A stretch of 64,000 nt of DNA, from NCBI RefSeq assembly GCF_016907845.1, contig NZ_JAFBCS010000001.1:1054001-1118000 (forward strand), given 5' to 3'. The stretch is from Arcanobacterium pluranimalium. Its GTDB lineage: Bacteria > Actinomycetota > Actinomycetes > Actinomycetales > Actinomycetaceae. The position numbers and the translations under genes are program-made. Shown piece after piece: positions 9,747-55,696 of the stretch. A model generated the notes under the pieces. That model was not told the DNA's origin. It saw only the letters and a program-made list of their open reading frames with translations, and ran no database searches. Numbering within the stretch: position 1 is the first letter of the stretch; each line of letters opens with the position of its first letter.

Positions 9747-9751
9747 ATAGA

Positions 9752-9835
9752 CCTATCCGCAACTGGCGCCTGAGGTGGTCACCACCGGGGAGCGGACAAA
9801 CAGAGGATCGCTAGTCGCTCGCCTGGGCAAGTGAT
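9752..9835 (+). ncRNA. ZTP (pfl) riboswitch upstream of glyA
   Basis: The RNA contains the conserved blocks of the pfl motif in order: CCGCAACTGGCG at 9757-9768, a GGTGG...CCACC stem around 9774-9785 followed by GGGGAGCGG, and the 3' block CGCCTGGGCA at 9820-9829, which would pair back in a pseudoknot. This class binds ZTP/ZMP, the alarmone of 10-formyl-THF shortage, and typically controls glyA, folD, purH and related genes. The genes downstream here fit exactly. The segment 9842-9861 can form a short GCAG...CTGC hairpin before the ribosome-binding site AGGAGG at 9879-9884, a possible expression platform. Confidence 0.88.
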
Positions 9836-38378: not shown

Positions 38379-40010
38379 TCAGGCATTGGGCGTATTCGAA
38401 TCCTTTTTGATACGACGTCGCTGGCGCGGAGCGCGTTTGGCTGATGGAGACTGCTCGGCCTTACGATCGCTACGTTCTGTAGCGCCGTCGTCTTGGCCTC
38501 GAACTTGGCCGCGACGTTCGCTACTTTGCGTCCGGCGTCCTCCATTGGTGCGATCCTGACGACGCTGGCTCCCGCTACGCGAGCGACCCGCGCGCTCACT
38601 GGTACGCCCCTGCGAACGCGAATGACGTTTGCCAGTCTCTCCAAGATCTTCGAGTTCTTCGGCATCGAGTCCCGCACGAGTGCGCTCTGATTTTGGAAGA
38701 CGACCAGTGACACCTTCTGGAATATCGAGATCGGTGAAGAGTTGTGCTGAGGTGTGATAAGTTTCCACCGGCTCAGGGAAATTGAGATTCAAGGCATGAT
38801 TGATCACTGACCAACGCGGAGTGTCTTCCCAATCCACAAAAGTGACGGCAGTTCCAGACTGACCGGCGCGTCCTGTGCGTCCAATGCGGTGCAAATAAGT
38901 TTTCTCATCTTCAGGGCACTGGTAGTTAATGACGTGGGTAACGTTGTCGACGTCGATGCCACGAGCTGCAACATCGGTGGCAACCAGGACGTCGATCTTT
39001 CCATTGCGGAACGCGCGCATGGCTTGCTCGCGCGCTCCCTGGCCGAGGTCTCCATGGATAGCGCCAGTTGCAAAACCGCGATCTTTAAGTTCGTCCGCAA
39101 GCTGCGCTGCTGTGCGCTTGGTGCGCGTGAAAATAATGGTCAGGCCGCGCCCACGAGCTTGGAGAATACGGGCAACTACTTCCGATTTATTCATTGCGTG
39201 GCAGCGGTAAATTACCTGGGTGACGCTTTGTACAGTGCTCGAATCATCGTCGGGCTCTTGAGCACGAATATGAGTTGGCTTTGACATGTACCTGCGTGCC
39301 ATCGCAACTACGGGGCCGGGCATTGTGGCCGAGAACAACATGGTGTGCCTGTTCGCTGGCGTGGCGCTGAGCAGGGTTTCGACGTCTTCCAAGAAGCCAA
39401 GATCAAGCATCTCATCGGCTTCGTCAAGGACGACTGTGCGCACTGCAGAGAGATCGAGAGTGCGGTTCTTCTTCAGATCGATTAGGCGGCCCGGTGTACC
39501 GACCACGATTTCAGCACCCTTTTTCAGAGCTTCCACCTGTGGCTCGTAGGCGCGGCCACCGTAGACTTCCACGATCCGGACGCTGCGATAAGCAGCTGCG
39601 TTGCTTAAATCGTTGGCGACCTGTTTTGCTAGCTCGCGAGTTGGTACGATGATCAGGCCTTGCGGGGCACCTTGATGTTCGATGTCGTCCCAGCCTGATT
39701 CACCTGGACCGATGGAATTTTCGAGTACCGGTAATCCGAAACCGAGGGTTTTGCCAGTGCCGGTTTTTGCCTGCCCAATAATATCGGCGCGTTTCAAAGC
39801 TACCGGTAGCGTGAGTGCTTGGATTGGGAACGGGTGGGTGATTCCGCGTTCGGTTAGGGCTTTGACGATTGGCTCAGAAACGCCAAAATCGGCGAAAGTG
39901 CGCTGCTCGAGATTGAGTTCTTCAGCAGAGCCTTCAATATCAGCCTTTACCTGCGAAATCTTTGGAGCAGAGGCATTTGAGGCATCTACGATGCCGGAAG
40001 TATTAGTCAT
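38379..40010 (-). CDS. DEAD-box ATP-dependent RNA helicase
   Basis: 543 residues. Q motif FADFGVSEPIVKALTERGI; motif I AKTGTGKT; Ia VPTRELAKQ; Ib TPGRL; II VLDEADEMLD; III SATMP; IV IIFTRTKR; V ARGIDVDNVTHVINY; VI HRIGRTGRAG. The C-terminal 130 residues are Arg/Ser/Gly-rich and disordered, ending with basic RQRRRIKKD, an RNA-binding tail typical of RhlE/DeaD-type helicases in ribosome assembly and cold adaptation. The order helicase / DUF3107 / AdnAB resembles mycobacterial rhlE. Confidence 0.93.
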   Translation of the reverse strand: MTNTSGIVDASNASAPKISQVKADIEGSAEELNLEQRTFADFGVSEPIVKALTERGITHPFPIQALTLPVALKRADIIGQAKTGTGKTLGFGLPVLENSIGPGESGWDDIEHQGAPQGLIIVPTRELAKQVANDLSNAAAYRSVRIVEVYGGRAYEPQVEALKKGAEIVVGTPGRLIDLKKNRTLDLSAVRTVVLDEADEMLDLGFLEDVETLLSATPANRHTMLFSATMPGPVVAMARRYMSKPTHIRAQEPDDDSSTVQSVTQVIYRCHAMNKSEVVARILQARGRGLTIIFTRTKRTAAQLADELKDRGFATGAIHGDLGQGAREQAMRAFRNGKIDVLVATDVAARGIDVDNVTHVINYQCPEDEKTYLHRIGRTGRAGQSGTAVTFVDWEDTPRWSVINHALNLNFPEPVETYHTSAQLFTDLDIPEGVTGRLPKSERTRAGLDAEELEDLGETGKRHSRSQGRTSERAGRSRSGSQRRQDRTNGGRRTQSSERRGQVRGQDDGATERSDRKAEQSPSAKRAPRQRRRIKKDSNTPNA

Positions 40011-40381
40011 TCACTTGTGCTTTCGTTTGGTGGCGCGCAGTAAAATAGCGCCAACTAAGGCAGCCGATCGTGAATTTCTTTTAGCTTTACCAAGACGACC
40101 GGGCAACCGCTAACAGTGCCATTCTACAGTAATGTGGTGCAAAAGCTGGGTCATTTGGTTCCAGAGTATATCCGAAGTCACGTTATTGTGCGGTTTGCGG
40201 GCGAGGGCTGCGGGCGGGCGCGGCCTGTGGACGGGCGATGCCTGCGAATTTTGGTGCGTATTCGACAACATCTCGATATATATCGACTAGTTGCCAAAAC
40301 ATCACCAAGAATGAGCAGTCTGATTGGATACCGCCCTTTTTGACGCTTGTGACACTTGACCCTTTAGGTGGTTTGCCCTCA
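40011..40381. other. 371-base intergenic region with no gene recognised
   Basis: Lies between the helicase start and the terminator of the mini-gene, both on the minus strand. It should hold the helicase promoter. 40195-40245 is a G-rich stretch with several GCGGGC/GACGGGC words. I see no coding signal, tRNA or known RNA motif. Confidence 0.5.
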
Positions 40382-40412
40382 TAAAAACAAAAAAGCGGAC
40401 GTCTTTGTCCGC
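40382..40412 (-). terminator. canonical intrinsic terminator of the mini-gene
   Basis: On the minus strand GCGGAC (40412-40407), a six-base AAAGAC loop, GTCCGC (40400-40395), then TTTTTTG-TTTTT. This is the clearest U-tract terminator in the window. Confidence 0.88.
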
Positions 40413-40441
40413 GTCTTCAGTGAGGGTCATCCTCAGATTAA

Positions 40442-40552
40442 TCAGATGTTAAGGAACTCCGACATCAGTTCGAGCTCACGAGCTTTCGCTTCGTAAACAT
40501 AACCGCTGGTGGCAGAATCGTTACGCTTGAAGAAATTCTTCAAAATTGCCAT
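40442..40552 (-). CDS. 36-residue hypothetical protein
   Basis: Hand-translated: starts MAILKNFFKRNDSATSG and ends ARELELMSEFLNI. The ATG at 40552 follows the rich ribosome-binding region GAGGAGGTGAATGAGG, and a textbook terminator lies 30 bases after the stop, so it looks like a complete one-gene transcript. The N-terminal ten residues are a basic amphipathic stretch; the C-terminal half is a Glu/Leu-rich helix (YEAKARELELMSEF). No family recognised. Candidates are a membrane-surface peptide or a small regulatory protein. It lies between the helicase and the MobA-like gene, all on the same strand. Confidence 0.7.
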   Translation of the reverse strand: MAILKNFFKRNDSATSGYVYEAKARELELMSEFLNI

Positions 40553-40675
40553 TCCTCATTCACCTCCTCTATTCAATTGTTTACAGGTACAATTCTACGC
40601 GCGCTGTAGTGGAGATAGCGAGCAAAAGGTGCGAAATGCTGGGAAAATAGTCCTAAGTCACAGTGAGCTACGCCG

Positions 40676-41338
40676 CTATTTTTCGTTGATTGAAAGGCGG
40701 TCTAGTAATTGCGTGGCACTTTCAGGGGTGTCGACGTCGAAACAATAGTTATGTTTGTCGATCAGCGTTTGAAGTTCCAACGTTCCAAATGCAGATTTTA
40801 TTGAAGCGTCTCTTCGTGCCGGGAGCTGGCGTAACGCATTGAGCCTGTACAAGCCATGCGTGTACTGTGGCCACGGATCGGTATCGTTCGTCGTCGGTAT
40901 GACACCTGCAGAACTGGGGCTTTGCTGGAGAACGCAAGCCAAATCGGGCAATAGCCGTGGCACAAGGGGAGCGTCGCAGGTCGCGAGCAGGACGCCGTCG
41001 TCGTCTGAAAAATCGTCGAACACGGCCACACCCGCTGCGATACCGGCGAGCGGTCCTCCAAAAGGAGGATCTTCCAAGGTGAGCCTTGCGCCGGTGGGCA
41101 CCGTGAGATCAGGTGGTCCGACGACGCACGCTTGGCCGTCAAAACCCGCCCGTTCGAGTTCGTCAAAGAGAAGGTCAAGAAGGCGTTTACCTGCAATCTC
41201 GTAATCTGGTTTGGAAACACCGCCGAGACGACGTGCCGTCCCACCAGCCAAAATGATCACGGCCTTGACCGACTCAACCGGGCGACGCGAAAGACCAACG
41301 CTTGCGTCTGTGTTGGTCAACGGAAAATCAGTTGTCAT
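40676..41338 (-). CDS. MobA-like molybdenum cofactor guanylyltransferase / NTP-transferase
   Basis: 220 residues, nucleotidyltransferase fold. VIILAGGTARRLGGVSKPDYEI is the MobA-type NTP loop with the catalytic Lys of SKPDYEI; LEDPPFGGPLAGIAAG and LLATCDAPLVPRLLPDL (metal Asp) are also family features. It may attach GMP to molybdopterin, but no other molybdenum cofactor gene is in the window and the 20-residue N-terminal extension is atypical, so a related nucleotidyltransferase activity is possible. Confidence 0.8.
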   Translation of the reverse strand: MTTDFPLTNTDASVGLSRRPVESVKAVIILAGGTARRLGGVSKPDYEIAGKRLLDLLFDELERAGFDGQACVVGPPDLTVPTGARLTLEDPPFGGPLAGIAAGVAVFDDFSDDDGVLLATCDAPLVPRLLPDLACVLQQSPSSAGVIPTTNDTDPWPQYTHGLYRLNALRQLPARRDASIKSAFGTLELQTLIDKHNYCFDVDTPESATQLLDRLSINEK

Positions 41339-55324: not shown

Positions 55325-55696
55325 GGGGATGATCGGTTTCGACGGTAGTGACTGCCGAAGGGAAGCGGGTAGAGGATGTAGAGTCATCTCTTTAACGATT
55401 CTCTGCAAAAAATTAGTTGCCAATAAGCAGCATTCTGACTTCGCCCTCGCCGCCTGAGCGAGCGCCTAAGTCCGTCACACTAGCGTTGCTTTCGCGCTAG
55501 ATTCGTGGCGTCGTTTTTGAAAGCCGCTGTTTTGCCCGCTCGTTAGTGGTTGGCAAAACATATTTAGCTAACTAGGTTCGTCAGCGACTTGTTTGCGTGA
55601 GTGCTGGAGCCGAAAACAACGTTTAGCAAACTGCACCCGGAGAAGACTTGGGTTTTGCGCTATCGGACCAGGGTTCAATTCCCTGCATCTCCACCA
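55325..55696 (+). ncRNA. ssrA: transfer-messenger RNA
   Basis: 372 bases. The 5' end GGGGATGATCGG and the 3' end GGTTCAATTCCCTGCATCTCCACCA form the tRNA-like domain: GGGGAT pairs with ATCTCC (one G-U), and the T-arm GGTTCAATTCC is intact. The tag reading frame resumes at GCC 55419 and encodes ANKQHSDFALAA with stop TGA at 55455-55457; it follows TTAGTT, the usual resume signal region. The four-pseudoknot body fills 55460-55640. Rescues stalled ribosomes together with SmpB just upstream. Its 3' end is a likely integration site for the island to the right. Confidence 0.97.

Follow-up and report, generated by a model that had tools for sequence, protein, structure and literature searches.

A very probable clade-restricted 36-codon gene with its own leader and terminator upstream of the DEAD-box helicase gene of Arcanobacterium

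The 64-kb stretch of Arcanobacterium pluranimalium DNA that was analysed here (the window) carries a reading frame of only 36 codons, upstream of a DEAD-box RNA helicase gene, that is very probably a genuine protein gene (the mini-gene). Comparison of its DNA with that of the two other species that carry it, A. bovis and A. ihumii, shows a frame under purifying selection, which has its own conserved leader with a predicted strong ribosome-binding site (RBS) and its own predicted terminator. We suggest, at a probability of about 0.5, that the mini-gene is a well-translated, monocistronic and clade-restricted gene whose product, a small helical regulator, docks on a membrane or on a protein, a function that we infer. 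Literature searches listed no publication on the mini-gene. The elements of the locus, in window coordinates, are as follows.

40644..40663, minus strand: conserved upstream block CTGTGANNTAGNACNATTTT, a possible regulator site, with an exact match once per carrier genome (n = 3)
40592..40597, minus strand: candidate -10 element TAGAAT, identified by eye in the three-species alignment and without a good -35
40560..40578, minus strand: 5' leader with a near-perfect Shine-Dalgarno sequence, AATTGAATAGAGGAGGTGA, identical in A. pluranimalium (window), A. bovis and A. ihumii
40552-40442, minus strand: mini-gene open reading frame (ORF), 36 amino acids plus TGA, peptide MAILKNFFKRNDSATSGYVYEAKARELELMSEFLNI
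40421..40435, minus strand: small conserved hairpin UGAGG-loop-CCUCA, between the mini-gene stop codon and the terminator
40389..40412, minus strand: intrinsic terminator GCGGAC-loop-GUCCGC-UUUUUU, conserved in all three carriers
38379..40010, minus strand: downstream neighbour, the DEAD-box RNA helicase, which has a leader of its own from about 40120

The case for selection on the peptide is made by the pattern of nucleotide differences. The frame has 36 codons in both other species (followed by TGA in A. ihumii, as in the window), and its identity to the window is 97% for A. bovis and 77% for A. ihumii. Relative to A. ihumii, there are 7, 3, and 18 differences at codon positions 1, 2, and 3 (18 of 28 at the third position), pN/pS is 0.21 (pS 0.70 and pN 0.15, with silent sites near saturation), and the changes include the mild exchanges I/L, V/I, L/M (twice), and D/E as well as S/T, A/N, T/V, and I/N. 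Relative to A. bovis, the corresponding differences are 0, 0, and 5 and pN/pS is 0.07. Fisher tests of silent against replacement change give P values of 2e-7 (A. ihumii) and 0.008 (A. bovis). The excess at third positions together with the low pN/pS argues that the peptide itself is under selection. An earlier note on this DNA had named loss of the frame, or conservation at the RNA level only, as the outcome that would speak against a gene; instead, the frame is kept at the same length and with most of its residues, and silent changes are in excess. The intergenic stretch, non-coding parts included, is so similar between the window and A. bovis (79–93% identical) that this pair alone says little about coding, which leaves A. 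ihumii as the main basis for the case that the frame is coding. Between the window and A. bovis, silent changes occupy 4 of 23.5 sites in the mini-gene, as against 272 of 401 in the helicase, and similarity is likewise elevated at the start of the helicase (40018-39899, 111 of 120 positions identical). This low divergence would reflect either the exchange of a tract between the lineages or a constraint on the DNA beyond that on the protein.

The RBS nonamer AGGAGGTGA ends 7 nt 5' of the ATG; it occurs twice in the 64 kb, both strands counted, and only the mini-gene copy is followed by a start codon at 1–13 nt. The proposal in the earlier note of a 36-residue ORF with an RBS is upheld, the combination of nonamer and start codon being unique in the window. 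The leader occurs as one exact copy in each of the three carriers; away from the locus, its motif has seven matches at three mismatches, of which five share one variant sequence and two are in genus genome G004, and one of the five looks, by eye, like the spacer adjoining an rRNA gene. The RBS is predicted to be comparatively open in the window species and A. bovis, where 89–94% of random synonymous controls are at least as paired, and no more open than controls in A. ihumii. An RBS-occluding switch or RNA thermometer, which had been raised by the three-species fold, was rejected on these grounds, since pairing at the RBS is below that of most synonymous controls in two of the three species and unexceptional in the third. 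The candidate -10 element reads TAGACT in A. bovis and TAACTT in A. ihumii and was not detected by a consensus promoter scan. The upstream block is absent, at up to one mismatch, from the other seven genus genomes; it is confined to the mini-gene locus, so that no regulon is seen, and it was rejected as a regulon marker because each carrier genome has it at a single locus.

At the 3' end, a strict terminator definition (perfect stem of at least 6 with at least 4 G/C, a loop of 3–8, and at least 6 T among the following 7) yielded the mini-gene terminator (40412-40395) as the sole match on either strand of the 64 kb. A looser scan found 16 sites in 16 kb, the mini-gene terminator among them, with 18 expected by chance, and so only the strict form is exceptional. 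With this definition, the assertion that the canonical U-tract terminator is unique holds true for the whole window. The five stem pairs of the UGAGG/CCUCA hairpin are invariant and its loop is variable in the three-species alignment; as the stem pairs never vary, they provide no evidence of covariation. A second frame 3' of the terminator (minus strand, ATG at 40379) was rejected, since it lacks an RBS and by eye shows mostly replacement changes relative to A. bovis.

The distribution of the mini-gene is narrow. A tblastn search of 59 relatives (E ≤ 1) matched four, namely A. pluranimalium, A. bovis, A. ihumii, and one chance match, and a search of 213 family genomes matched five, the three Arcanobacterium carriers plus two weak matches (E 0.19 and 0.62) that lie inside frames of 535 and 455 amino acids and were rejected as chance. 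In a profile search of 10 genus genomes (E ≤ 10), the mini-gene was single copy and absent from the other seven; the one additional match, at E 1.43, is inside a 330-residue frame. The same approach matched 35 of 396 order genomes (E ≤ 1), three of which were judged real. The best match beyond Arcanobacterium (E 0.0046, residues 13–33) belongs to a 51-residue open frame without comparable start, RBS, or terminator and was put down to chance, as were the remaining matches, most of which sit inside long frames. Among GTDB r220 contigs, 63 stretches fit a peptide pattern and two of them code for a relative, one on Arcanobacterium bovis NZ_SJDT01000003.1 and one on A. ihumii NZ_UWOS01000001.1; none of 119 pattern matches in IMG/VR was confirmed as a relative, and the plasmid and phage collections held no relative. 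By helicase identity to the window genome, the other two carriers (88% and 84%, versus 72–77% for six other genus genomes) are the closest relatives. This fits a gain of the mini-gene within one Arcanobacterium clade, loss elsewhere being the alternative.

The helicase adjoins the mini-gene downstream on the same strand in all three carriers. The earlier note had proposed tBLASTn in the Actinomycetaceae, with synteny beside the helicase, as a check; the synteny is confirmed in all three carriers, and the mini-gene was found in three Arcanobacterium genomes only, not throughout the family. The window genome and A. bovis share the gene order DUF3107, MobA-like, mini-gene, helicase. A search of the 15-kb stretch of A. 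ihumii found no MobA and no DUF3107; the mini-gene and helicase persist there, which makes them a stand-alone unit. In the six other genus genomes inspected (G001–G006, out of seven), DUF3107 and helicase are adjacent, MobA has no match, and nothing comparable to the mini-gene ORF lies 5' of the helicase; in the sister species inspected, the free space 5' of the helicase is only about 25–370 bp. The window and A. bovis have the MobA-like nucleotidyltransferase gene (40676-41338) between DUF3107 and the mini-gene; it is unmatched at the locus in G001–G006 and A. ihumii. The MobA-like proteins of the window and A. bovis are 55% identical, compared with 89% identity of DUF3107 and 88% of the helicase. 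G003 has a second, partial DUF3107-like frame (residues 35–74; L018:5841-5942) between DUF3107 and the helicase.

The peptide is outside the known families in the libraries searched, in agreement with the earlier failure to recognise one. There was no match in NCBIfam, PHROGs, or PDB and nothing above cut-off in Pfam, where the only hit was PF16022 (DUF4783) at E 0.053–0.096 in two of the three members scanned (13.2 bits for the window peptide, compared with a cut-off of 24.1). AlphaFold2, given an alignment of three sequences, predicts one helix spanning residues 2–34 with moderate confidence (mean pLDDT 76, pTM 0.35), a result to be read with the caveat that short charged peptides are frequently modelled as helices. 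The net charge is +3 over residues 2–11 and -2 over residues 18–34. The hydrophobic moment of residues 2–11 (0.54) is reached by 19% of shuffles (about 15–19% overall), so the term amphipathic is not established; of the "basic amphipathic start" ascribed to AILKNFFKR, the basic character stands, whereas the amphipathic character reflects composition and not arrangement.

Other readings of the locus were weighed. The roughly 190-nt transcript could be a dual-function or purely regulatory RNA, in which the transcript itself, with its conserved 3' hairpin and terminator, would be the active product and the ORF would be secondary. Its leader and 3' end are conserved about as well as the ORF, the window transcript out-folds its shuffles (z -2.39, with 4 of 200 doing as well), and the scarcity of silent changes relative to A. 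bovis would also suit an RNA. However, the ORF changes relative to A. ihumii are mostly silent, covariation was seen at 0 of 16 pairs in the 3' part and 2 of 50 overall, and Rfam has no match on the mini-gene strand (one chance match, E 0.91, is on the opposite strand); we regard this reading as unlikely. We consider a toxin of a type I toxin–antitoxin pair with an antisense RNA to be improbable. The mini-gene does resemble such toxin genes in being tiny and stand-alone with a strong terminator, and its patchy distribution is in keeping with this, but, on inspection of its sequence, the peptide is not hydrophobic: it lacks a membrane-spanning stretch, has charged residues throughout, and has a mean hydrophobicity of 0.26–0.43 over the segments computed. 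Type I toxins are common in plasmids and phages, and the mini-gene has no plasmid or phage match, is single copy, and has no identified antisense gene.

In three of three carriers the mini-gene precedes the helicase in the same orientation, with a terminator sitting between the two, which raises the idea of a leader peptide or attenuator of the helicase. Against this, the helicase comes with a conserved promoter-like and leader sequence of its own, the peptide contains no regulatory codon run, and none of the six other genus helicases inspected has a comparable upstream ORF. In the predicted transcript fold, the mini-gene terminator forms; the promoter-like region and leader of the helicase are separate. 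We rate a leader-peptide role for the mini-gene as quite improbable. Finally, the MALL..FF..R start recalls a stripped-down MinE acting on a MinD-type ATPase. By eye, MALLKNFFKRN of A. ihumii is similar to E. coli MinE MALLDFFLSRKKN (local alignment score 29, a value attained by 2.6% of shuffled peptides), and, as in the MinE N-terminal region, a short stretch that is hydrophobic or aromatic and then basic opens the peptide, ahead of a helix in the model. Yet the peptide has only 36 residues, the best alignment of the window peptide is with another part of MinE, PF03776 matches neither the peptide (three of three members scanned) nor the genome, which has no MinE, and the genome has no MinD over the curated cut-off (five matches, none over that of TIGR01968). 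We regard this reading as extremely improbable.

For the small helical regulator that we favour, transcription would start from a promoter just 5' of the mini-gene and the translation rate would be high. The product, whose short start AILKNFFKR is basic and aromatic and whose second half SGYVYEAKARELELMSEF is acidic and aromatic, would fold as a single helix and serve as a small regulator by docking on a partner, either the inner membrane face or a protein. Many small proteins are specific to one lineage, and it is probably one of them. SpoVM, MciZ, and Sda are lineage-specific bacterial small proteins of fewer than 50 amino acids; the mini-gene is also very small, with a narrow distribution and a short and probably helical peptide, but no sequence relation was found. 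More speculatively, and with little likelihood, it might represent a new family of small helical regulators, born or acquired in one clade, whose basic aromatic start docks on the membrane or a conserved partner and which controls a helicase-linked process (for example, RNA degradation or cold adaptation). If the helicase or some process at the membrane were under its control, the mini-gene would count as a new small regulator. As a selected, clade-restricted microprotein, it may, given the short space upstream of the helicase in sister species, help in dating when a small gene was born or gained. The case also indicates that reading RBS and terminator together can reveal real genes missing from family libraries.

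Several other elements were observed in the window. The helicase mRNA leader (40011-40120) is strongly conserved in the three Arcanobacterium species (GCGGTTGCCCGGTCGTC...ACGATCGGCTGCC), and two of its conserved blocks could pair; it has no Rfam match, and the window sequence alone folds no better than shuffles. Its segment CACGATCGGCTGCC is also found upstream of the helicase in G037, from a different family of the same order. Between the mini-gene terminator and the helicase promoter, an imperfect palindrome of roughly 60 bp (40249-40308, within 40175-40400; core TCGATATATATCGA) belongs to a dispersed repeat family; the window genome has 42 rows of it and A. bovis 20, which merge into 32 and 14 distinct places, the locus copy included. 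The other eight genus genomes have no comparable match (one 17-bp match in G005), and the palindrome looks like a REP or MITE-type element. The window also contains a ZMP/ZTP riboswitch (9749-9835) and a tmRNA (55325-55696, tag ANKQHSDFALAA), both of which are ordinary.
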